Virus record (IMG/VR): IMGVR_UViG_3300011113_000640
Span: 1 to 64,000 of that record
Length of the DNA stretch: 64,000 nucleotides
Strand: one strand, 5' to 3'
DNA from: a virus
This document shows, piece after piece, positions 16,581 through 58,545 of the stretch. The notes under the pieces are model-generated. The model searched no databases. It was not told the origin of the DNA and worked only from the letters and a program-made list of their open reading frames with translations. A program made the translations under genes and the position numbers. The first letter of the stretch is position 1; the number at the start of each line of letters is the position of its first letter.

Positions 16581-16609
16581 ATTATATTATAGATTGATTT
16601 TTTGGACAA
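16581..16609 (-). promoter_or_regulatory. sigma70-type promoter TTGTCC-N17-TATAAT
   Basis: The -10 ends 6 bases before the ATG at 16574, so the predicted transcript has almost no leader. It overlaps the stop of the radical SAM gene. Confidence 0.45.
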
Positions 16610-17499
16610 TTATATTGGCAAGCTGACTGTAGATCCAAATTTTGATAAAATTCTACAACCAATTTATCAGCAAGCAACTGGCTGATAGTGGTTTTGGTTA
16701 TGTCGTAACTTTTTTTATTTTTTCCAAATTGATGCTTGTAATAAAATCTATGGTCGGCTACCCAACAACAAGGTGAATAATAGCCATCTGCGGTGATAAA
16801 ATGTTCTCTACCTGTGTTGCACTTGGGTTCGACCTGGGGTATGAGATTTTCTTTTTTCCATCTTTCCATGGAAACGAATCTTTCTCCAATTAACTCGTCA
16901 GATCTGGGCAACAGGTCCAAGGTTTGTTCGTCAAAACGATCACTGGGGTCCAGAAAAAAAGTATCTACCCCTAGTTCTTGAGACATTTTTTTGGCCTGTT
17001 CAACAGTTTCTTCATTGTAAGCAAAAGGAATGTATTTCCATACAGTTTGACAGTTGCTGGCCACACAGGTTTTAATGGCGGTTTGTATGCTGGGCCAGTC
17101 GGCATTTTTTCTATACTGCGTGAAATTATCTGGTGTGCCGTCTATGCTAAATTGCACTACGTCATCTTTATCAAGATACCCGGTCAATTGTTGCCACCAG
17201 CTTTGAGATTGATAACTGCCATTGGTAGTGATCGATATCATGGTTCCTGCTTGCTTGAGCTTGGCCACAAAATTGATCAGATCACTGTGATATATTGGGT
17301 CTCCATAGTTTCCGCAGAGAACCATGCGTTTGCCCGAAAGATCGATATCTAAAAATGACAGCAATAAGTCAATATCAAGATTGTGATTTTTCCAGTGCCC
17401 GGGCCATTGATTGATAAATCTGGTCCTGGCACATCCGGAACATTTGAGAGTGCAGATATTGGTAGGTTCTATGTGGAACCCAGTGATGGTATCAATCAT
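16582..17499 (-). CDS. radical SAM protein with C-terminal cysteine cluster
   Basis: 305 residues from the ATG at 17499. CTLKCSGC (Cys16, 20, 23) is the radical SAM 4Fe-4S signature; GNYGDPI follows as the SAM-contact segment and FSIDGT as a later barrel strand. The C-terminal part has CNTGREHFITADGYYSPCCW and CQYNCP, fitting a SPASM/twitch auxiliary cluster region. SPASM proteins typically modify peptides or install maturation marks. A 94-residue unknown gene and a second radical SAM gene lie just upstream with overlapping ends, so the three may work together. No obvious precursor peptide was found beside them. Confidence 0.85.
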   Translation of the reverse strand: MIDTITGFHIEPTNICTLKCSGCARTRFINQWPGHWKNHNLDIDLLLSFLDIDLSGKRMVLCGNYGDPIYHSDLINFVAKLKQAGTMISITTNGSYQSQSWWQQLTGYLDKDDVVQFSIDGTPDNFTQYRKNADWPSIQTAIKTCVASNCQTVWKYIPFAYNEETVEQAKKMSQELGVDTFFLDPSDRFDEQTLDLLPRSDELIGERFVSMERWKKENLIPQVEPKCNTGREHFITADGYYSPCCWVADHRFYYKHQFGKNKKSYDITKTTISQLLADKLVVEFYQNLDLQSACQYNCPKNQSII

Positions 17500-17500
17500 G

Positions 17501-17785
17501 CTAGGAAGTTTTGTTGATATCTTCTTTGGATAGTTCGTGTCCGTTTTCCTGGAACAAGCGTTCAATGGTGGTTGCATAGTGTTTGTAATAGTAGCTGACA
17601 ATGGTATCCCAATCTTTGGTGGCACTAAGTCCGGCCACGCTACACAACAACACCCGCTGTTCCTTAAAATCCAGGATAACATTGGTCATTTGCCAATCTT
17701 TGCGCCTGAGTCTTTTCGAGATAGTCATGACTTCATCAATCTTGCCCGAAGGTTTAGTGTAGTAGGTTAATAACAGATATCTCAT
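17501..17785 (-). CDS. conserved small phage protein
   Basis: 94 residues (MRYLLLTYYTKPSGKIDE...). It matches from memory a small protein family common in T4-like cyanophages. Mixed alpha/beta, no catalytic motif. ATGA overlap with the upstream radical SAM gene and 1-base spacing to the downstream one. Function unknown. Confidence 0.7.
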   Translation of the reverse strand: MRYLLLTYYTKPSGKIDEVMTISKRLRRKDWQMTNVILDFKEQRVLLCSVAGLSATKDWDTIVSYYYKHYATTIERLFQENGHELSKEDINKTS

Positions 17786-18867
17786 ATTAAATTTATTCCT
17801 AAGTAATTGCGATGATCGATGTTGCGTCTTGAATCTAGATCTTTGATGTAGGAACTCAACAAAATTGAATCTCCTGGAGTTAGTATAAGATCAGTGATGT
17901 TATCAATTTTTGTTTTAAAAATTAAATCATTTTGATAAAATCTTGATTGACGAATATTTACAAAATTATCATGTACTGTTTGTTTTATTTCTGGTGGCAA
18001 ATTATTGACCAGTAATGCCCGAGGCTTTGTTAAAATTGACAGAGTCCATTGATGGCACAGGTGTTCTATTTCTTGTAGCCGGTGTAAATTTAAAATACTC
18101 ACAGCATCAACTACTGTGTTAAATTGTATGTTACAGTTGATACTATTTGCCCACTGGAGATTTTCTAAAAATTTTGACCATTTCATTGGCCATCTGTGAT
18201 ATTCATTTATTTTTTCTACACCATCTACGCTGACCGTTAGTGTTAATTTTTTTATTCTTTTTAAAAATTCTTTCAAATTGTCATTGGTCCGGGTTAAATT
18301 AGTGTTTATAACTAGTTCGGGCTGTTGATCCAAGGTTGAAATATATTCTATTAATTGAATGAACTGATCGATAATTAAGGGTTCTCCTCCGGCCAGGTAA
18401 ACTTTTTTCGCCAGTTTTATTTTTTCTAAATCAAGTTTTAATTTACGAGACTTGGAATTTATTCCTAATTCTTTGGCCCAAAGAGAACTTTCGGTTGGAT
18501 TACAGGTAATACATGCCAAGTTGCATTTGTTATCATATCTTATGTCGTAAAAAAATACCTGGCGTGGCGAATCCTCAGTCCACTTTTCTATGTAATCGCT
18601 TACTTCTGCATGTTTTAGCCATCGAGCTGATTCCAAAAGCCTTGGACTAATTACTTGCGATTTTTCAAGATCGTAACATGATTGACAATGGACAATTTTT
18701 TCTCCGTTTTTTATTTTTTTTCTTAGTTCATTTGAACTAACAGAATCTAAATGATCAATTGAAGTAGGACTATAACAGCAAAAACGTTGGGCGTCACCTA
18801 GCGGATAAAATTGTTCAATGAATGGCAAAACACAAAAGGCCGGATTACTCAACCATTTAGTTGACAT
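17782..18867 (-). CDS. radical SAM protein
   Basis: 361 residues from the ATG at 18867. CNLACITC (Cys115, 119, 122) is the radical SAM signature, followed by YLAGGEPL (the GGE motif), VINTNLTR, and LTVSVDGVEKINEYHR. The N-terminal 70 residues contain further cysteines (FCCYSP, HCQSC) that may bind another cluster. The layout resembles twitch-domain radical SAM proteins found in phages. The gene is AT-richer than its neighbours, which may point to separate acquisition. It overlaps the clamp-loader stop by 19 bases. Confidence 0.85.
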   Translation of the reverse strand: MSTKWLSNPAFCVLPFIEQFYPLGDAQRFCCYSPTSIDHLDSVSSNELRKKIKNGEKIVHCQSCYDLEKSQVISPRLLESARWLKHAEVSDYIEKWTEDSPRQVFFYDIRYDNKCNLACITCNPTESSLWAKELGINSKSRKLKLDLEKIKLAKKVYLAGGEPLIIDQFIQLIEYISTLDQQPELVINTNLTRTNDNLKEFLKRIKKLTLTVSVDGVEKINEYHRWPMKWSKFLENLQWANSINCNIQFNTVVDAVSILNLHRLQEIEHLCHQWTLSILTKPRALLVNNLPPEIKQTVHDNFVNIRQSRFYQNDLIFKTKIDNITDLILTPGDSILLSSYIKDLDSRRNIDHRNYLGINLI

Positions 18868-19775
18868 AGTTCTACCAAGGTTGCACTCAAGTTGATTTCC
18901 TGGTCGGCCACCAAGGGAACATTGACCAAGCCGTTGCGTATGATTATGATGGCCTGATCCTGCCGTTCTGGATCCTTGGCCCACAAGTCCAGGTTGTCAT
19001 ACATCCAGCGGAATATGTCATCGGCTTCTTCGGGAGTGCTTGATTGGCAAATCAATGTTCTGGCTTCTTTGATTTTTCCGTCTTTGAACAGTTGCACACA
19101 GTCCAGTTTCCAATCTCCTGCGGCCTTGTCGGCTGAGCTGGGTGGCACCAGATGACCTGTGGTGCTGTTCTGTTGAGTCAAGTTTAGGCATTTGCGTAGA
19201 TCTGGATAAGTGGCTCGCACGTAGCTGTCAAGAGTATCAATGTCAAATTCCACCTGTTCAGTGACCAGTACCGTGGCCACTCGAGCAGTGAATTCCACCT
19301 GATCAGTTTTGACTATGTGCAGTTGTTGACAACGACTGTGTATGGGTGGAATGATCTTGTTGGGATAGTTACAGGTCAAGATGAATCTCACATGATCACT
19401 GTAGTCTTCCATGAGATTGCGTAGTGCCGGTTGCACACTTTGTGGATTCATGTAGTCAGCTTCGTCGATCAGCACAACCTTGAACGCACCAAAAGGCATG
19501 GTCTGGCAAAATGAAATCAGTTTGTCCACCCACTCGATCTTTCTAGCTTCTTTAGATCCATTGGCCCACATCACATCATATTCGTCGATACCCAGCTCAT
19601 TGATCAGCATTTTGGCCAAGGTGGTCTTGCCTGTGCCAGGGCCACCTGAAAACAACAAGTGCGGAATACTTTTTTCTTTGATCCAACTTTCAACCAGGGT
19701 TCTTTGATTGTGATCCACAAACACATAACCGTCTGCAGTTTTGGGACGGTATTTTTCTACCCAAAGTTCTTTCAT
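18849..19775 (-). CDS. sliding-clamp loader large subunit (RFC small/T4 gp44-like)
   Basis: 308 residues. AAA+ motifs: Walker A SGGPGTGKTTLA near 43-53, Walker B VVLIDEADYM near 103-112, sensor 1 LTCNYPNKI and the SRC arginine finger (IHSRCQ), then a C-terminal helical collar. It opens and loads the sliding clamp for the replisome, as gp44 with gp62 does in T4. ATGA overlap with the small membrane protein upstream. The small partner subunit is not recognisable here. Confidence 0.9.
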   Translation of the reverse strand: MKELWVEKYRPKTADGYVFVDHNQRTLVESWIKEKSIPHLLFSGGPGTGKTTLAKMLINELGIDEYDVMWANGSKEARKIEWVDKLISFCQTMPFGAFKVVLIDEADYMNPQSVQPALRNLMEDYSDHVRFILTCNYPNKIIPPIHSRCQQLHIVKTDQVEFTARVATVLVTEQVEFDIDTLDSYVRATYPDLRKCLNLTQQNSTTGHLVPPSSADKAAGDWKLDCVQLFKDGKIKEARTLICQSSTPEEADDIFRWMYDNLDLWAKDPERQDQAIIIIRNGLVNVPLVADQEINLSATLVELCQLNG

Positions 19776-41069: not shown

Positions 41070-41085
41070 CCTTTTGGTAAACCCG

Positions 41086-41114
41086 TAAAAAAGCCCTATT
41101 TTACTAGGGCTTTT
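41086..41114 (-). terminator. rho-independent terminator (probably bidirectional)
   Basis: AGCCCT / AGGGCT stem with 8-base loop, A-run on one side and T-run on the other. Ends the phosphate-stress transcript 12 bases after the amidotransferase stop. Confidence 0.85.
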
Positions 41115-41125
41115 GAGTGTTGTTT

Positions 41126-41851
41126 TTAGACAACAGAACCAGCCCAGGGCGTGGTCGACAACCATTTCTTATAGATACTGTCAGCTGTGGTCTGATGCTG
41201 TGCCAAATGATACGGTAAACCTGCCAGCATGGAGATTTTGTCCTGTACGGTTTCATACAGCGATCTTGATTCAGCCCATTTGGCATCATCTTCTGCCACC
41301 CAGCTCTGCATTTTGGTTTCCGTGATTTCAATGTGGAACTGCATGGCCAGATGTGGACCCATGGCCCAGGCCTGATTGGGGCATACTGGGCTGGTAGCCA
41401 CTCGCACTGCACCTGCAGGTATGCCAAACGATTCATAGTGCCAATGCGCCACGGTGTTGGTGGGGGTGTCTCCAAACCACTCTCGAGCCACGTCTAGATT
41501 TTCATATTGGATGGGTTGCCATCCTATCTCTGGTTGAGCACTAGGACCTATAGTTGCACCCAGGGCACGGCTCATAAGTTGTCCACCTAGACAATGTCCA
41601 ACCACCGGACGATCCAAGCGCATGGCCTGCAGGATAAGGATTTCTGCTTGACGATTACTGAGCAAAGGATCATTGGCACTCATGCCACCGCCCATGACAG
41701 CCAGGGCCGAGTAAGGTTCTATACTAGCAGGAAACTCTTCATCGGCGCCAGCATTGAATATGACATAGTCAACACGATGCCGCTCCAACCATGTGGTTAG
41801 ATAAGCGGCATTTTCGGGTAGTTGATGTTGTAAGATTGCTACTGGTCGCAT
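41126..41851 (-). CDS. class I glutamine amidotransferase-like protein
   Basis: 241 residues. Nucleophile elbow VVGHCLGGQLMSRALG (Cys near residue 88), LAVMGGGMSAND, and MQFHIEI with the catalytic His-x-Glu. Resembles stand-alone GMP-synthase-type amidotransferases of proteobacteria, which release ammonia from glutamine or hydrolyse gamma-glutamyl bonds. Late-type octamer GTTAAATA exactly 5 bases before the ATG; last gene before the terminator. Its link to phosphate metabolism is unclear; a role in purine or gamma-glutamyl metabolism is possible. Confidence 0.85.
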   Translation of the reverse strand: MRPVAILQHQLPENAAYLTTWLERHRVDYVIFNAGADEEFPASIEPYSALAVMGGGMSANDPLLSNRQAEILILQAMRLDRPVVGHCLGGQLMSRALGATIGPSAQPEIGWQPIQYENLDVAREWFGDTPTNTVAHWHYESFGIPAGAVRVATSPVCPNQAWAMGPHLAMQFHIEITETKMQSWVAEDDAKWAESRSLYETVQDKISMLAGLPYHLAQHQTTADSIYKKWLSTTPWAGSVV

Positions 41852-41856
41852 CTGGG

Positions 41857-41864
41857 TATTTAAC
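41857..41864 (-). promoter_or_regulatory. late-type octamer GTTAAATA
   Basis: GTTAAATA-N5-ATG (41851), in the 27-base gap after pstS. Predicts an independent late leaderless message for the amidotransferase. Confidence 0.55.
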
Positions 41865-41878
41865 CCAGATTGGCACCA

Positions 41879-42886
41879 TTATTTTTTGATCAAAGCCCAC
41901 TGCTCGCTACGGATGCGATCTGTGACTGCCTTGGGCAGGGGAACATAGTCTAGATCAAGAGCACTTTTACCACCCTTGTCCCAAGCATAAGCAAAGAACT
42001 TGAGTACTTCTTGTGTGGCTTTGACGTCTTTGGGTTCACGATATACCAACACAAACGTGGCACCAGTGATGGGCCAAGCATCAGCACCCTTTTGATTCAC
42101 CAGGCTGATACCCATGCCCGGTGTTTTAAACCAGTCAGCGTCCTTGGCAGCTGCGGCAAAAGTCGTGTCATCGGGTTGCACGTATCGTCCATCACGATTC
42201 TGCATCTTCACGTGAGGAATGTTGTTTTTCTTGGCATAGGCATATTCCACATAGCCAATCGAACCTTTCACACGGTTGACCACAGCGGACACACCTTCAT
42301 TGCCCTTGCCACCCACGGCTGTGGCTGGAATCCATTTTACAGCGGCACCTTTGCCCATGCGTTCAGCCCAGGACTTGGATACTTCGTTCAAATAGTCTGT
42401 GAAGATAAATGTTGTGCCGGATCCATCAGCACGATGCACCACAGTGATTGGCAAGTCGGGCAAGGTCTTGCCAGGATTCAAGGCCGCAATCCGAGCATCG
42501 TTCCACTTGGATATAGTTCCAAGATAGATGTCTGCCAAGACTGCGCCTGTGATCTGTAGTTCACCAGGTTTGAAACCATCAAGGTTTATGATAGGAACCA
42601 CACCGCCCAACACAGTGGGGAACTGGATCAAGCCGGCCTGGGCTAGATCTGCTACATTCATGGGTGCATCAGTGGCACCAAAGTGAACTGTGCCAGCACG
42701 GATCTGCTTGATACCGCCCGAGCTACCAATGCTCTGATAGTTGAGCTTGACACCGGTGATTTTTTGATAATCCACTGACCATTGCGAGTAGATGGGAAAT
42801 GGGAATGTGGCACCTGCTCCTGTGATTTCCACAGCAGACACCGAAGTCGCTAATACAGTCAATACAGCGGCTAAAAACTTTTTCAT
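41879..42886 (-). CDS. pstS: phosphate-binding protein PstS
   Basis: 335 residues. Signal peptide MKKFLAAVLTVLATSVSA, then the PstS core: ITGAGATFPFPIYSQW, IGSSGGIKQIRAG, GATDAPMN, and HRADGSGTTFIFTDYL, all phosphate-contact segments. It is the periplasmic high-affinity phosphate receptor for the host PstCAB transporter. Start at 42886 with AAGGAG. A three-repeat Pho box lies 45-73 bases upstream, so host PhoB should induce it under phosphate limitation, as known for cyanophage pstS. No pstCAB genes present, as usual in phages. Confidence 0.97.
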   Translation of the reverse strand: MKKFLAAVLTVLATSVSAVEITGAGATFPFPIYSQWSVDYQKITGVKLNYQSIGSSGGIKQIRAGTVHFGATDAPMNVADLAQAGLIQFPTVLGGVVPIINLDGFKPGELQITGAVLADIYLGTISKWNDARIAALNPGKTLPDLPITVVHRADGSGTTFIFTDYLNEVSKSWAERMGKGAAVKWIPATAVGGKGNEGVSAVVNRVKGSIGYVEYAYAKKNNIPHVKMQNRDGRYVQPDDTTFAAAAKDADWFKTPGMGISLVNQKGADAWPITGATFVLVYREPKDVKATQEVLKFFAYAWDKGGKSALDLDYVPLPKAVTDRIRSEQWALIKK

Positions 42887-42930
42887 TGGATCTCCTTGAT
42901 AGTTGTTGTGCGAAGGCACACGTTTACTTA

Positions 42931-42959
42931 ATTACAATTTTGTTACAGTTTTATGACAT
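42931..42959 (-). promoter_or_regulatory. three-repeat Pho box upstream of pstS
   Basis: On the minus strand: ATGTCAT-AAAA-CTGTAAC-AAAA-TTGTAAT, i.e. three PhoB half-sites spaced 11 bases apart, matching the CTGTCAT-N4 rule with one to three mismatches per unit. A short hairpin (42907-42920) follows before the ribosome binding site. Confidence 0.75.
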
Positions 42960-42987
42960 GTCCGGTTACGGCTCCGGCGACACCTGA

Positions 42988-43995
42988 TCATTGTGCCCGA
43001 TTCACTTCTACTAAATTGTCACGGAATATGCGCCAACATGCGTCCCAGGTCCAACGCAGGCTGGCCTGTTCTACCTGGTCACGATCCAAGGTCAAGCAAC
43101 GTTCCACGGCATGTGCCAGGTTCCAGTCTAGATATCCCGTCACACCCGACTCCACTATGTCTATGGGCCCGGGCACAGGATATGCTGCCACCGGAGTGCC
43201 GCAGGCCAGGGCTTCGATGTTGACCACACCAAAGGTATCAGCTCGGCTGGCGAACACAAACACATCGGCCTGTGCATAGTAGCCGGCCAACTCCAGACCA
43301 CGCTGTGCGCCCACAAATTCCACTGTGGGATATCTGCGTTCCAATTCGGCTCGATAAGGACCATCTCCCACTATGATTTTGCGACACCAAGGCATGTCCA
43401 GCCGACAAAAATCTTCCAGACCTTTTTCACGACTCACACGACCTACGCTGAGCAGTACAGGTCGTACGTTTGAGCCAGATCGTAAACTACTGCTAAAGTA
43501 GGTGCGGTCCACACCGCGAGTCCAGACTTGAAGATTCTCAAAGCCACGAGCTGTTAACTCTTGCTCGATGCTGGCGGTTGTGACCAACACACGTTGACTA
43601 TTTTTGTGGAACCACTGCAGATACCACCAAGTCCACGACTCTGGAACATGATACATGCGTTTCAAAAACTTGGCAAAGTCTGTGTGGTAACTTGTATTGT
43701 AAGGAACACAGTTACGTTCGCACCACCAGCGGGCAAAGAAACCTACCGGACCTTCTGTAGCGATGTGTATAAAGTCTGGACGTAGCGTCTTAATTTTTTT
43801 GCTGATACCGTGCGGCCAGCACAGACGAACTTCAGGATAACCAGGGCAAGCAAAATTAGGGAACTGAGAGGGATCAACATAAACAACACGATAGCCGTCA
43901 CGGTCAGCATGATCTTCCAAGTTCCGGAAAGTTGTGACCACACCGTTGATTTGACCGGGCACATTGTCAGTTATGATCAGGATCGTTTTTGACAT
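42988..43995 (-). CDS. GT4 glycosyltransferase, Agt/SqdX-like (glycolipid synthesis candidate)
   Basis: 335 residues. GT-B fold of family GT4: N-terminal DNVPGQINGVVTTFRNL, HIATEGPVGFFARWW, a middle VLLSVGRVSREKGLEDF, and the E-x7-E nucleotide-sugar site FASRADTFGVVNIEALACGTP. This type includes SqdX, mannosyltransferases and the Agt enzymes that put sugars on diacylglycerol during phosphate starvation in proteobacteria. It lies in one transcript with the plcP-like gene upstream and pstS downstream, the arrangement expected for lipid remodelling. Sugar and acceptor cannot be read from sequence; a surface-glycan role is the alternative. Confidence 0.8.
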   Translation of the reverse strand: MSKTILIITDNVPGQINGVVTTFRNLEDHADRDGYRVVYVDPSQFPNFACPGYPEVRLCWPHGISKKIKTLRPDFIHIATEGPVGFFARWWCERNCVPYNTSYHTDFAKFLKRMYHVPESWTWWYLQWFHKNSQRVLVTTASIEQELTARGFENLQVWTRGVDRTYFSSSLRSGSNVRPVLLSVGRVSREKGLEDFCRLDMPWCRKIIVGDGPYRAELERRYPTVEFVGAQRGLELAGYYAQADVFVFASRADTFGVVNIEALACGTPVAAYPVPGPIDIVESGVTGYLDWNLAHAVERCLTLDRDQVEQASLRWTWDACWRIFRDNLVEVNRAQ

Positions 43996-44153
43996 GACGT
44001 GACTACCTTGAAACTGTCAAACTTGAGCCAATAGGCCACCGTGGCCTGTGCTCGCACGCATTCTGCTTCGGTGGCAAACTCAATGCTTGCTCTTCCGGGC
44101 ACGTCTTGAGGATTGTTCACGTGAACTGCTATCAACATCAGCAACCACATCAT
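43977..44153 (-). CDS. 58-residue protein between plcP-like and agt-like genes
   Basis: Starts MMWLLMLIAVHVNN (hydrophobic N-terminus), then GRASIEFATEAECVRAQATV and FDSFKVVTSCQKRS. Strong AAGGAG ribosome binding site. It overlaps the plcP-like gene by 74 bases and the glycosyltransferase start by 19, in a third frame. The E-x-C...S-F-K-V...C pattern is common in small phage proteins. Function unknown. Confidence 0.6.
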   Translation of the reverse strand: MMWLLMLIAVHVNNPQDVPGRASIEFATEAECVRAQATVAYWLKFDSFKVVTSCQKRS

Positions 44154-44904
44154 CTGTCTCCTTGGTCCATGTAACTATTTCCCACTGTCCTGAATGATGT
44201 TCAACTAGGGCTGTCATTGACTCAACCCAGTCTCCATCGTTCATGTAGACTACACCATCTATTTCTTTGATTTCTGCGTGGTGGATGTGTCCGCATATAA
44301 CACCATCGAATCCACGCTTCTTGCAGTACGCGGCAAGATTACGTTCGAACTGAAACAAAAAGTCACTAGCTTTCTTGACTTTGTATTTGAGATATTTGCT
44401 TAGACTCCAGTAGCCCAAGCGTAGTCGACGACGCACAGCATTAAATTGTGAATTTAGATTCAATACAAAATCATACAGTTTATCACCTAAAAATGCCAGC
44501 CATGGTGCCAATCTGGTGATGCCGTCAAACAAGTCACCGTGTGTGACTAGATAGTGTCGACCGTCTACGCCAATGTGTTCTGCTTGATTTACAACTTCGA
44601 TTAGGCCAAATCCAATGCCCAATGGTATAAGTGGTCTTAGAAATTCATCATGATTGCCAGCCACATAGATTACTCTGGTACCACGTTTGGCATGCCCCAT
44701 TACTCTACGGATCACATTGGTATGGCTCTGTTTCCAACGCCATCGGTTCTGTTGTATTTTCCAGGCGTCAATGATATCACCTACAAGATAAAGTGTTTCG
44801 CAGGTGTGGTGTTTGAGAAAGTTGTTGAGTTGTTCAGCCTTGCAGTCCTTGGTACCAAGGTGTACATCTGAAATGAATATTGATCTGTAAGTGCGGCCCG
44901 TCAT
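44080..44904 (-). CDS. PlcP-like metallophosphoesterase (phospholipase C of lipid remodelling)
   Basis: 274 residues. Calcineurin-like metal motifs: SDVHLG (Asp13, His15), GDIID (Asp43), GNHDE (Asn84, His85), THGD (His122), and GHIHHAE (His206, His208). The sequence RWRWKQSHTNVIRRVMGHAKRG-free features aside, the stretch LGYWSLSKYLKYKVKKASDF and MNDGDWVESMTALVEH is the PlcP pattern rather than classical LpxH. Database entries often label such proteins UDP-2,3-diacylglucosamine diphosphatase. PlcP removes phospho-headgroups from membrane phospholipids in phosphate-starved proteobacteria, giving diacylglycerol for glycolipid synthesis. Located two genes from pstS. A late octamer ends 4 bases before the ATG. 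Confidence 0.8.
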   Translation of the reverse strand: MTGRTYRSIFISDVHLGTKDCKAEQLNNFLKHHTCETLYLVGDIIDAWKIQQNRWRWKQSHTNVIRRVMGHAKRGTRVIYVAGNHDEFLRPLIPLGIGFGLIEVVNQAEHIGVDGRHYLVTHGDLFDGITRLAPWLAFLGDKLYDFVLNLNSQFNAVRRRLRLGYWSLSKYLKYKVKKASDFLFQFERNLAAYCKKRGFDGVICGHIHHAEIKEIDGVVYMNDGDWVESMTALVEHHSGQWEIVTWTKETDDVVADVDSSSREQSSRRARKSKH

Positions 44905-44908
44905 GCAT

Positions 44909-44916
44909 TATTTACA
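44909..44916 (-). promoter_or_regulatory. late-type octamer TGTAAATA
   Basis: TGTAAATA-N4-ATG (44904). Upstream CTGTCGT and CTGTAAC segments vaguely recall Pho half-sites but are not spaced by 11 bases. Confidence 0.5.
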
Positions 44917-44937
44917 GGCCCGTGTGTTACAGTTGTG

Positions 44938-45243
44938 TTACGACAGTCGCATCACTGCCATGAGTGCTTCGTTGGCATCCCAGAACACCCAATACCAGCG
45001 TTGATGTGTGTCGTTGTCTAGAAACACGGGTTCGGCTCTGTAGCGTAGGGCTCGGATGTCCGCATCCATGGCTTCCCATGTTGACCAGGCAAAACCACGC
45101 AAGCCCACACGTCGGTTGCGGTCCACGGGATCAACTACCAGCACTGACGCTGGTGGATTGTCGTAGTAACGATCTACCTGTTTTTGTTTTTCGTAATAGG
45201 GAATATGGCGTTCAAGCCATGTGGGCCAGTCTACAACTTGCAT
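44938..45243 (-). CDS. unknown protein beside the phosphate cluster
   Basis: 101 residues (MQVVDWPTWLERHIPYYEKQ...). Trp/Arg-rich with FAWSTWEAMDADIRALRYRA. No motif recognised. Starts directly at the stop of the DUF2061-like gene. Whether it belongs with rubrerythrin upstream or plcP downstream is unclear. Confidence 0.55.
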   Translation of the reverse strand: MQVVDWPTWLERHIPYYEKQKQVDRYYDNPPASVLVVDPVDRNRRVGLRGFAWSTWEAMDADIRALRYRAEPVFLDNDTHQRWYWVFWDANEALMAVMRLS

Positions 45244-45446: not shown

Positions 45447-45884
45447 TTACTGATCGGCCTTGTGAGCTGCCAAAGTCTTGGTGAACTTGTTGGCGTGTGA
45501 GCGTTCTGCCTTGGCCAGGGTCTCAAACCAGTCAGCGATTTCGTCAAAGCCTTCGTCACGTGCTTCCTTGGCCATGCCAGGATACATGTCACTGTATTCA
45601 TGGGTCTCGCCATGGATAGCAGCTTCAAGAGCTTCTGCAACGGTCTTGGCGCTCATGCCTGTACCTGGCTCGCCAGCACCACCAGTGATCAAATACTCCA
45701 TGTGACCATGGGCATGACCTGTTTCACCTTCAGCAGTTGAGCGGAATACACTTGCTACATCTGGTGCACCTGCTACGTCGGCCATGTTTGCGAAATACAA
45801 ATAACGACGATTTGCCTGGCTCTCGCCCGAAAATGCCGCTTTCAAGTTTTCTTCTGTGCGTGTTCCTTTTACGCTTTTTGCCAT
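45447..45884 (-). CDS. rubrerythrin (diiron domain only)
   Basis: 145 residues. Four-helix ferritin-like diiron domain: [19 protein letters not shown] (Glu ligand), [15 protein letters not shown] (E-x-x-H), [15 protein letters not shown], and [12 protein letters not shown] (second E-x-x-H). The rubredoxin domain of classical rubrerythrins is absent, as in many proteobacterial homologues. Acts as a peroxidase in the cytoplasm, complementing the superoxide dismutase at 33.2 kb. Own promoter at 45924. Unusual in a phage. Confidence 0.9.
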
Positions 45885-46050: not shown

Positions 46051-47724
46051 ATGAACAGCAGATACGACGAACTAGAAATCCTAATCTCAAAATTTACACG
46101 ACCACTCCCCGATCTTCCAGCATACGCCCAGCGTCTTGAAGAAGAATTAGAAATCATAGCCAATCTTAACTTCGCAAAACATTTTTTGCGTGTGAGAGAA
46201 ATCCTGGATCTCACCCGCGACATACCACACATCACCCGAGGATCAGCCGGAAGCAGTCTGCTATGCTGGCTCATGGGCATTTCAGATGTGGATCCCATAG
46301 CTGAACGCATACCCTTGTCAAGGTTCATGAATCCCAAGCGAGATGACCTTCCCGACATTGATCTAGACTTTCCACACTGGCAACAGGAAACTGTGATGAA
46401 CAGAATATTCCGGCGGTGGCCTGGGCAGAGTGCCAGAGTATCAAACTATGTGATGTATAAAGAAAAATCAGCCCGGCGTGAAGCTGCCAAACGCATGGGG
46501 GCCAAAGGCAAATTAAAACGTAATTTTAAATTTGAAGAAGTAGTTCCGGACTATGTGGAAGATGCTGAACGACTCACACAAAAACTCCTGGGCAAGAAAC
46601 GTTGCATATCCAAACACTGTGGTGGCATCTTGATCTTTGACCGTGCAGTGCCTAAAAGTTTAATCAATGGCACCAACCAAATACTCTTGGACAAGTATGA
46701 GATAGAAGATCTCGAACATTTTAAAATAGACATCCTAGCCAATCGCGGACTCAGCCAGCTGTGGGAAATAGAGGAGCGAGACCTGCTGGACTATCCTGAA
46801 TACGATGAGGCTACAGCAGAACTTTTGTGTCGCGGCGATGTGTTGGGTGTAACACAAGCAGAAAGCCCAGCCATGAAAAGACTAGTAAAAGCCATCAAGC
46901 CTAAAAGTCGTAGTGACTGTGTGCTGGCCACGGCACTCATACGTCCTGTGGCTACCATGGGTCGCAGACGTGCTAGTGCTTTCCAAGACTGGTCAACGGA
47001 TCAGCTACAGGATACCATAGTGTTTGAGGATGATGCCATAGAGCTGATCTCGGAAATCCTGGGTTGTGATCAATACACCGCGGACATGTGGCGCAGAGCC
47101 TTTGCCAAGAAAGATGAAGAAAAGATCTTTGAGTTTATGGTGCTTGTGGGTGACCATCCCAAGAAAGAAGAAATATTCCTAGCTCTGCGTGAACTCAGTC
47201 ACTTTGGCCTGTGTAGGGCACATGCCATAAATCTTGGTAGACTGATCTGGGCCTTGGCCTACCAAAAAGCACACAATCCTGAAGCGTTCTGGCGTGCGGC
47301 CCTGAAACACTGCCAAGGATCGTATGCTCGCTGGGTCTACTGGCAAGAAGCCAAGCTGGCCGGTGCTGTGCCTGCTATCATCGAGGGCGGCGAAGTGGCC
47401 GAACTGAGAACCAATGGTCGTTGGAGCAGTCGAAGGTTTATTCCGGCCTGCCAAGAACGTCGTGGCCCGGGCACGGTGGAGTTCTGTGGACTCGTGGCCA
47501 ACTATAGGGTGTTTAAGGCCGACAAAAAGAAATACATAACATTTGTTACACTGGGCACCGGCAATGGTCGATATTTGGATGTGATTGTGCCGCATGCGAT
47601 TTCGTTCCATGATCAACCAATCTTGTGGGGTCAGGGCAAATTGGGGTATAAAAATAATTCGGAATATGTTACAGTGTATAAACACAAGCGTCTAGACTTA
47701 AAGGACATAGAACACTATCAATGA
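46051..47724 (+). CDS. DnaE-like (PolIII-alpha) polymerase core lacking the PHP domain
   Basis: 557 residues. Aligns by eye with the palm, thumb and fingers of PolIII-alpha: RLEEELEIIANLNFAKHFLR, ITRGSAGSSLLCWLMGISDV, catalytic PDIDLDFP (Asp102, Asp104), CISKHCGGILIF, FKIDILANRGL (Asp227, third catalytic Asp), LGVTQAESPAMKRLVK, MWRRAFAKKDEEKIFEFM, and the GLCRAHAINLGRL helix. Protein begins where E. coli DnaE is at about residue 340, so the PHP proofreading/organising domain is missing, as is most of the C-terminal clamp- and tau-binding region. All three catalytic Asp remain, so activity is plausible. Ribosome binding site AAGG. Overlaps the next gene (ATGA). It may be the phage replicase or a repair polymerase. 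Confidence 0.9.
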   Translation: MNSRYDELEILISKFTRPLPDLPAYAQRLEEELEIIANLNFAKHFLRVREILDLTRDIPHITRGSAGSSLLCWLMGISDVDPIAERIPLSRFMNPKRDDLPDIDLDFPHWQQETVMNRIFRRWPGQSARVSNYVMYKEKSARREAAKRMGAKGKLKRNFKFEEVVPDYVEDAERLTQKLLGKKRCISKHCGGILIFDRAVPKSLINGTNQILLDKYEIEDLEHFKIDILANRGLSQLWEIEERDLLDYPEYDEATAELLCRGDVLGVTQAESPAMKRLVKAIKPKSRSDCVLATALIRPVATMGRRRASAFQDWSTDQLQDTIVFEDDAIELISEILGCDQYTADMWRRAFAKKDEEKIFEFMVLVGDHPKKEEIFLALRELSHFGLCRAHAINLGRLIWALAYQKAHNPEAFWRAALKHCQGSYARWVYWQEAKLAGAVPAIIEGGEVAELRTNGRWSSRRFIPACQERRGPGTVEFCGLVANYRVFKADKKKYITFVTLGTGNGRYLDVIVPHAISFHDQPILWGQGKLGYKNNSEYVTVYKHKRLDLKDIEHYQ

Positions 47725-57366: not shown

Positions 57367-57730
57367 CTCTTACCCCACTTTCTATCCATTGTGCCAAGGG
57401 CTCATATTCCAATCGACCCCAATCAGTTTCGCCGCCAAGCACATCAATCTGCGTGCCTTGCTTTTCGGCATTGTTGATCAAGTTGCTCAAGACCGTGCCG
57501 CCATAGCCGTTGGTTCCATAACTGTCTCGATGGCAACGATACACCGATCCAGACGACCCATCAAATTCCCAATAAGGGTCTGCAAAGTGAGCACGAACAA
57601 TGCCCGAGTTCAACTTCCAGCTGTCCGACCCAGCATAGCCTGCCGACCAAGAGGCAAATACCTTGTATACGACCTCGCCTGGTGCGTGTATGCGTATGAC
57701 AGTCCAACGGTCTGGTGTGTAATCACTCAT
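57359..57730 (-). CDS. conserved phage protein
   Basis: 123 residues (MSDYTPDRWTVIRIHAPGEV...). WKLNSGIVRAHFADPYWEFD and SGSVYRCHRDSYGTNGYGGT suggest a small alpha/beta domain. One-base overlap with the metallophosphoesterase stop. Function unknown. Confidence 0.65.
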   Translation of the reverse strand: MSDYTPDRWTVIRIHAPGEVVYKVFASWSAGYAGSDSWKLNSGIVRAHFADPYWEFDGSSGSVYRCHRDSYGTNGYGGTVLSNLINNAEKQGTQIDVLGGETDWGRLEYEPLAQWIESGVRDV

Positions 57731-58545
57731 TAAACCTCCAGGTATTTTAGTTCAAACAATTCAGCACGACGCTCGTGACCCACATAGCCTCGAGGATTGC
57801 AGACCACTCTAGTGGTGCCAATTAGATAATCTGATACATTGTGCATGTGACCATGACAAATCAATCTGATCTGCGGCCTATCCAACACAAACTCACTGAG
57901 ATCTGTGTAAAAGTTTCCGTTCATCAAGAGATCGCCTTTGTAGCATTCTGCTACACTGGCACTGCTGGGCGCATGATGCACTGCTACCACAAACTTTTTG
58001 TCGCCTTGTCCTTCAGTAACCAAACGGATGTAATCCAACATGGCCCGATGATCAGCCAGAGTGTCTTCAGGTTGCAAGCGACTGGCATATCCACCACCTG
58101 AAATGCCACGACCACTGTTTTTGCACACACGGTAGTCGTTCATTCTTTGGCCAGCGTTCCACATGCATAGGCTGTCTTCCCGGTTGAAATCGGTCCATAA
58201 GGTGCCACCCACAAAGGTCACATCCTCTATGGTCACTGTGTCTTTTTCCAACAAGTGGACATTGTCACTGCCAAGATCCGCCAGCATGGCCTCCAGGCGC
58301 TCACGGCTACGGGCATAGTCACCCTGGTAGTGCTCGTGATTGCCCATGATGTAGATCACTCGCGGAAAACGATCGCTGACCTGCTGGAAAAATGTGCGGC
58401 AAGTCCTGCCCATGTTAGTTTCATTGTTGACATCCACGGCCTGGCAGATATCGCCAGCAAGAATCAGCACATCAGCTGATTGGGTATTTTCAAGTTCAAT
58501 GGCACCAAACTCAAGGTGGATGTCAGACGCTAATGCTACCCTCAT
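57730..58545 (-). CDS. calcineurin-like metallophosphoesterase
   Basis: 271 residues. SDIHLE (Asp8, His10), LAGDICQAVD, GNHEHY, VHHAPSS, and CHGHMHN are the metal ligands of the superfamily. Unlike the PlcP-like protein at 44 kb it has no lipid-enzyme features; phage relatives include phosphodiesterases acting on nucleotides or RNA ends. Overlaps the upstream gene by 23 bases. Confidence 0.85.
   Translation of the reverse strand: MRVALASDIHLEFGAIELENTQSADVLILAGDICQAVDVNNETNMGRTCRTFFQQVSDRFPRVIYIMGNHEHYQGDYARSRERLEAMLADLGSDNVHLLEKDTVTIEDVTFVGGTLWTDFNREDSLCMWNAGQRMNDYRVCKNSGRGISGGGYASRLQPEDTLADHRAMLDYIRLVTEGQGDKKFVVAVHHAPSSASVAECYKGDLLMNGNFYTDLSEFVLDRPQIRLICHGHMHNVSDYLIGTTRVVCNPRGYVGHERRAELFELKYLEV

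Follow-up and report, generated by a model that had tools for sequence, protein, structure and literature searches.

A PlcP-Agt gene cassette in a T4-like jumbo phage: a putative auxiliary metabolic operon for membrane-lipid remodelling under phosphorus stress

We analyzed a 64,000-nucleotide stretch of viral DNA (the window), corresponding to bases 1-64000 of the 320,541-bp virus record IMGVR_UViG_3300011113_000640, and examined a block of genes with a proposed function in phosphorus stress. The block comprises a metallophosphoesterase (plcP), an open reading frame (ORF) of 58 aa, a GT4 glycosyltransferase (agt), the phosphate-binding protein gene pstS and a class-I glutamine amidotransferase (Table 1). 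A preliminary description of the sequence had reported five consecutive ORFs on one strand followed by a terminator, and all of these were found on the minus strand, as ORFs, family matches and a stem-loop with a T-run. Because the record is 320,541 bp long, contains a gene for the T4 Gp23 major capsid protein (189123-190133 of the record; PF07068, E 4.6e-98) and encodes a gp44-type T4 clamp loader inside the window (phrog_168, E 2.4e-74), the source record is, on its gene content, a T4-like phage of jumbo size. Bacterial contamination is an unlikely origin, given the Gp23 gene in the source record; of 22 long records that were searched, 12 have this gene (the source record counted in).

Table 1. 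Genes and sequence elements of the plcP-agt-pstS region, in window coordinates.
Feature	Position	Strand	Evidence
plcP, PlcP-type metallophosphoesterase (phospholipase C), 274 aa	44080-44904	-	Pfam Metallophos, tree, motifs
58-aa ORF, overlaps plcP 3' end and agt 5' end	43977-44153	-	ORF, viral conservation
agt, GT4 diacylglycerol glycosyltransferase of the Agt/GTcp group (by sequence), 335 aa	42988-43995	-	Glyco_transf_4/Glycos_transf_1, tree, residues
pstS, periplasmic phosphate-binding protein	41879-42886	-	NF008171 and TIGR00975
Class-I glutamine amidotransferase	41126-41851	-	PF00117 (GATase)
Intrinsic-terminator-like hairpin AAGCCCTA-GTAAAA-TAGGGCTT and T run	~41085-41113	-	Sequence reading
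Pho-box-like 11-bp direct repeat TCGTAACACAACTGTAAC ahead of plcP, first repeat degenerate	44926-44943	-	Position and spacing
TAAATA promoter element, 11 nt past plcP box, 4 nt before plcP ATG	44909-44914	-	Sequence reading
Tandem Pho box ATGTCATAAAA-CTGTAACAAAA-TTGTAAT ahead of pstS	42931-42959	-	Score and strict pattern
TAAGTA, 11 nt past 18-nt pstS box	42925-42930	-	Sequence reading

The phage phosphoesterase is 49-57% identical to PlcP encoded in the bacterial plcP loci of named genomes, many of which have an Agt-like GT4 directly downstream; for scale, the characterized PlcPs of Pseudomonas and Phaeobacter share 47% identity (PMC8528852). In a maximum-likelihood tree the phage protein was placed inside PlcP, and a split with 100/100 support set four LpxH proteins apart. 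The PlcP metal-ligand motifs DxH, GD, GNH and GHxH (D13xH15, D43, N84H85, H122, H206xH208) were invariant in the alignment. LpxH (UDP-2,3-diacylglucosamine hydrolase) belongs to the same metallophosphoesterase superfamily, and automatic annotation favors this name. LpxH models were also the top curated-family matches of the phage protein; however, these matches were well under cut-off (47.5 versus 134 and 36.3 versus 190 bits), and the phage protein has GNHDE in place of the LpxH motif GNRDF. By phylogeny and motifs, the phosphoesterase belongs to PlcP and not to LpxH.

The glycosyltransferase is 36-46% identical to bacterial enzymes encoded just downstream of plcP. Phylogenetic analysis recovered the viral Agts as one clade (100, starred) within bacterial Agt, with Pelagibacteraceae GTcp orthologs as sisters (97, starred), while WaaG, WaaB and other genomic GT4s fell far outside the Agt clade; the 'other GT4' label in this tree is imperfect, as two of its rows, L264 and L277, are in fact genomic Agts and a third, L272, came from a faulty extraction. 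Mutation of SAR11 GTcp has identified residues G16, G82, G85, H104, T162, R163, R190, K195, D256, T257, F258, G259, E264 and W320 as functionally important (PMC8231724), and all 14 are kept in the window Agt (G18, G82, G85, H104, T159, R160, R186, K191, D253, T254, F255, G256, E261 and W317; the first four were mapped by eye via the motifs INGV, ATEGPxG and NTSYHT, the other ten by an alignment script). Clade and residues alike assign the enzyme to the Agt/GTcp group of GT4. The preliminary description had recognized a PlcP pattern in the phosphoesterase and an Agt-like enzyme in the GT4, and both identifications hold: the grouping with LpxH that it had named as telling against it was not seen, nor was a grouping of the glycosyltransferase with WaaG/WaaB or other genomic GT4s.

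The two trees also bear on a different function for the pair, in which an LpxH-like enzyme and a capsule or lipopolysaccharide (LPS) glycosyltransferase would change surface polysaccharide or LPS and thereby the phage receptor. This is in line with the top-ranking LpxH models and with the name 'lpxH' used in viral surveys (PMC9611531, PMC10653327), but with scores below cut-off, the GNHDE motif, LpxH apart from the phage protein and the glycosyltransferase within Agt, we consider it very improbable and rejected it.

To place these genes in a wider viral context, a protein search of IMG/VR was used. Close relatives of plcP turned up on 257 contigs, and relatives of agt on at least 565. One locus, L004 (MT836169), looks like a stretch of bacterial DNA, with a plcP relative, a GT28-like gene, ppk and ppx, and was left out of later trees. 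Among 71 viral plcP loci with enough downstream sequence, plcP was followed by the 58-aa ORF and GT4 in 37, the 58-aa ORF and a GT2 in 23, GT4 in 5, GT2 in 3, the 58-aa ORF alone in 1 and neither in 2; 68 of the 71 thus had a glycosyltransferase of one or the other family directly downstream. Conversely, all 73 testable viral agt loci had plcP directly upstream (58 by script window; in the other 15, plcP overlaps the start of agt by a few bases). GT4 and GT2 were exchanged in the slot after plcP at least four times on starred branches of the plcP tree (12 times by parsimony), with the position of the slot unchanged. Values of dN/dS were 0.06-0.13 for plcP, agt and pstS, indicating purifying selection, and 0.04 for the part of the 58-aa ORF outside the plcP overlap (one sufficiently diverged pair). 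Because the plcP-agt gene order was found again in about 140 viral loci and dN/dS is low, the arrangement is not a coincidence but a recurrent viral cassette.

The 58-aa ORF sits between plcP and the glycosyltransferase gene in 60 of the 71 viral loci, and none of 80 bacterial plcP loci showed it; by this distribution the protein is phage-specific. It has two conserved cysteines and a predicted b-b-a-b fold (AlphaFold pLDDT 95), and searches returned no Pfam family, no PDB fold match and weak matches to PHROGs of unknown function. The GT2 that can occupy the glycosyltransferase slot is a GT-A enzyme with TarS/TarP-like neighbors, and its gene position suggests that diacylglycerol may be its acceptor. 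At the loci L021/L022 (L022:8001-9640), where plcP is 87% identical, the glycosyltransferase is replaced by a RimK-like ATP-grasp protein.

The phage PstS scored above the curated cut-offs of both NF008171 (409.5 bits, cut-off 339) and TIGR00975 (364.8 bits, cut-off 205), and its matches to cyanophage PstS were at about 35-37% identity. As start codon, ATG 42886 was preferred over GTG 42919, with a Shine-Dalgarno sequence AAGGAG and a signal peptide MKKFLAAVLTVLATSVSA recognized by eye. No pstC was found in the phage record.

Upstream regions were searched with a Pho-box weight matrix based on E. coli sites, and with a strict-pattern test independent of this matrix. The top Pho-box score of the 64-kb window was directly ahead of pstS (18.4; shuffled windows did not exceed 16.1), and in the 320-kb record the strict pattern occurred upstream of pstS and in one other place only. 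Across the viral relatives, the strict 11-bp repeat was present upstream of 44 of 121 non-redundant plcP genes (shuffles, 0.03) and 16 of 24 pstS genes (shuffles, 0), and ahead of none of 93 agt genes. When repeat periods of 8 to 15 were tried at viral plcP, none but 11 occurred. The shuffle control ignores common descent, for which the agt and 58-aa starts, sharing that descent, serve as a control.

The repeats are phased with a second element. A TAAATA was located exactly 11 nt past the box in 30 plcP and 12 pstS cases, and at 21-22 nt in 14 more plcP cases; in the window the plcP upstream region reads TCGTAACACAACTGTAAC, 11 nt, TAAATA, 4 nt and ATG, and the plcP transcript is probably near-leaderless. 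In the 50 nt preceding each of 721 viral ORFs, TAAATA itself was observed 151 times in all, against an expectation of 12.7; it starts most often 10-12 nt ahead of the ATG, which suggests that many transcripts of these phages are near-leaderless. It appears as a promoter-like element phage-wide (nine window ORFs; loci L005-L084) and resembles the T4 late promoter, TATAAATA.

With TAAATA ahead of many genes of these phages and the TGTAAY repeats differing somewhat from the classical TGTCAT, element and repeats could together form a purely phage promoter that answers to a phage-encoded regulator rather than to PhoB. We regard this as quite unlikely, as the repeats stand at two phosphate-stress genes (plcP and pstS) with a Pho-type 11-bp period and none stands before agt, while the remaining TAAATA sites showed no upstream consensus or repeats. 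Moreover, the distance from the viral box to the -10 element corresponds to that in the E. coli phoA layout. The plcP and pstS promoters would instead be PhoB-gated promoters of phage type, with PhoB as the predicted binding protein. More tentatively, and at somewhat less than even odds, a widespread T4-like lineage may drive lipid remodelling from a composite promoter, in which the phage TAAATA is joined, at a constant phase of 11 nt, to repeats for host PhoB, yielding a near-leaderless message. If so, viral lipid conversion would fire only when the infected cell itself signals phosphate starvation and, since the slot takes either GT4 or GT2, the sugars added to host lipids would differ from phage to phage.

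The identities of the genes, their conserved order and coupling, and the phasing of the promoter motifs were observed directly. They point to an auxiliary metabolic operon with which the phage would remodel membrane lipids when phosphorus is scarce, a reading to which we assign a probability of about 0.78 and in which enzyme activity, PhoB binding and benefit to the phage are deduced from sequence. In bacteria, PlcP and Agt make glycolipids under PhoB (PMC4796936, PMC8528852, PMC8231724), and cyanophage genes respond to host PhoB (PMC10976474). In a phosphate-starved infected cell, host PhoB acting on the Pho boxes would switch on plcP-58aa-agt and the neighboring pstS. PlcP would then split host phosphatidylethanolamine and phosphatidylglycerol into diacylglycerol and a phosphorylated head group, and Agt would combine the diacylglycerol with a UDP-sugar to form a phosphorus-free glycolipid; because Agt caps the diacylglycerol with a sugar, the membrane would stay intact and diacylglycerol would not build up. 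Phage PstS may allow more phosphate to be captured via the host PstCAB, and head-group phosphorus and PstS-bound phosphate would together feed nucleotide and virion synthesis. The preliminary description had proposed that the phage turns host phospholipid into phosphate for its DNA while the membrane is kept. Enzyme identities, coupling and Pho-type promoters agree with this proposal; its last step, phosphate for DNA, is deduced, and would need host phosphatases because the head group released by PlcP is not free phosphate.

Alternatively, glycolipids may be made with a main gain other than phosphorus, the changed membrane charge or curvature protecting the cell or excluding other phages and the Pho box providing timing only. 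Pseudomonas glycolipids alter polymyxin sensitivity (PMC8528852) and Ruegeria aminolipids alter phage attachment (PMC9938194), and the desaturases in 14 of 20 related records, the source genome among them, suggest a broader tailoring of membranes. The common promoter type of plcP and pstS and their adjacency at times favor phosphorus as the joint theme, however, and we consider this alternative unlikely. These fatty-acid desaturase genes number at most five per record, and in the source genome one is located at G000:C1:75301-75909; at one locus (L034) a desaturase lies about 0.6 kb behind plcP-58aa-GT2.

Several observations weigh against a phosphorus-responsive lipid-remodelling operon. Glutamate is not tolerated at the GTcp Asp256 position (PMC8231724), and several viral Agts carry it there; the window Agt has Asp. 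The preliminary description had put the plcP-agt pair together with pstS, and while the pair itself is coupled, the coupling to pstS is only partial: 14 of the 71 loci have a same-strand pstS no more than 3 kb from plcP. In the window the pstS box is perfect and the plcP box has a degenerate first half, and 77 of the 121 viral plcP upstream regions were without the strict repeat. Of 14 stretches examined upstream of bacterial plcP, a single one contained the loose repeat, so that a host-side counterpart was not demonstrated, and a published warning holds that phage Pho-box predictions are unreliable without binding tests (PMC10976474).

The phage cassette shares its two enzyme families, gene order and the catalytic and acceptor-site residues of Agt with the bacterial plcP-agt operons of SAR11 HTCC7211, Phaeobacter MED193 and Pseudomonas aeruginosa PA3219-PA3218, for which Pho-box control has been reported (PMC4796936, PMC8528852, PMC8231724). 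Unlike these operons, it resides in a T4-like jumbo genome, has a 58-aa ORF overlapping both genes and lies near pstS, and its phage group can have GT2 in the GT4 slot and TAAATA with Pho repeats. Cyanophage pstS and phoA under host PhoBR (PMC10976474) are similar in that a phage-borne pstS is combined with Pho-box control; cyanophages carry transport and phosphatase genes, and no report of cyanophage lipid remodelling was found. Pelagibacter phage Mosig EXVC030M (MT647606) encodes a PlcP relative with 49.8% identity that is annotated as UDP-2,3-diacylglucosamine hydrolase and is not mentioned in the Mosig genome paper. The gene is divergent from a pstS and has a TAAATA just ahead of its ATG, but in contrast to the window phage there is no glycosyltransferase beside it. 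The Mosig pstS and plcP share one intergenic region (L002:7841-8000), with TTAAC-type repeats and TAAATATTGATATG before plcP.

The amidotransferase had been counted as a member of the phosphorus cluster, which was not upheld. Because it has its own TTAAATA directly ahead of its ATG, and a single 38-residue match in 1 of 80 related loci was all that was found, it is probably a neighbor outside the conserved cassette. A rubrerythrin-like protein is encoded close to plcP (45447-45884, minus strand), as it is near plcP in several related loci. Elsewhere in the window are a further metallophosphoesterase with no relation to the plcP cassette (57730-58545, minus strand; phrog_1649, E 3.3e-50), a 557-aa protein whose matches are limited to the NTPase and finger domains of DNA polymerase III alpha (46051-47724, plus strand; similar ORF in L044), and two radical-SAM-like proteins side by side (16582-18984, minus strand).

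Genes for phosphate transport and for phosphatases are familiar from phages, but much of the phosphorus of a starved cell is stored in its membrane, which ranks among the largest of such stores. We found no phage described as encoding enzymes to exploit the host membrane in this way while holding it together. A full-text literature search found no description of a phage PlcP-Agt pair, with or without pstS, among open-licence papers (bioRxiv apart; reports elsewhere are possible), in agreement with the preliminary description, which knew of none. The chemistry of PlcP and Agt is already established in bacteria; it is the phage strategy that was not found described. Genes named 'lpxH' in viruses of Lake Baikal (PMC9611531) and of marine surface water (PMC10653327) may be of the same kind, and many viral genes filed under that name may need re-reading. 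If the cassette is active, infection would shift the lipid composition of bacteria in low-phosphate waters, with possible consequences for grazing, antibiotic tolerance and lipid biomarkers, and the loose idea that phages tap host lipids for phosphorus would become testable with two genes and one promoter.

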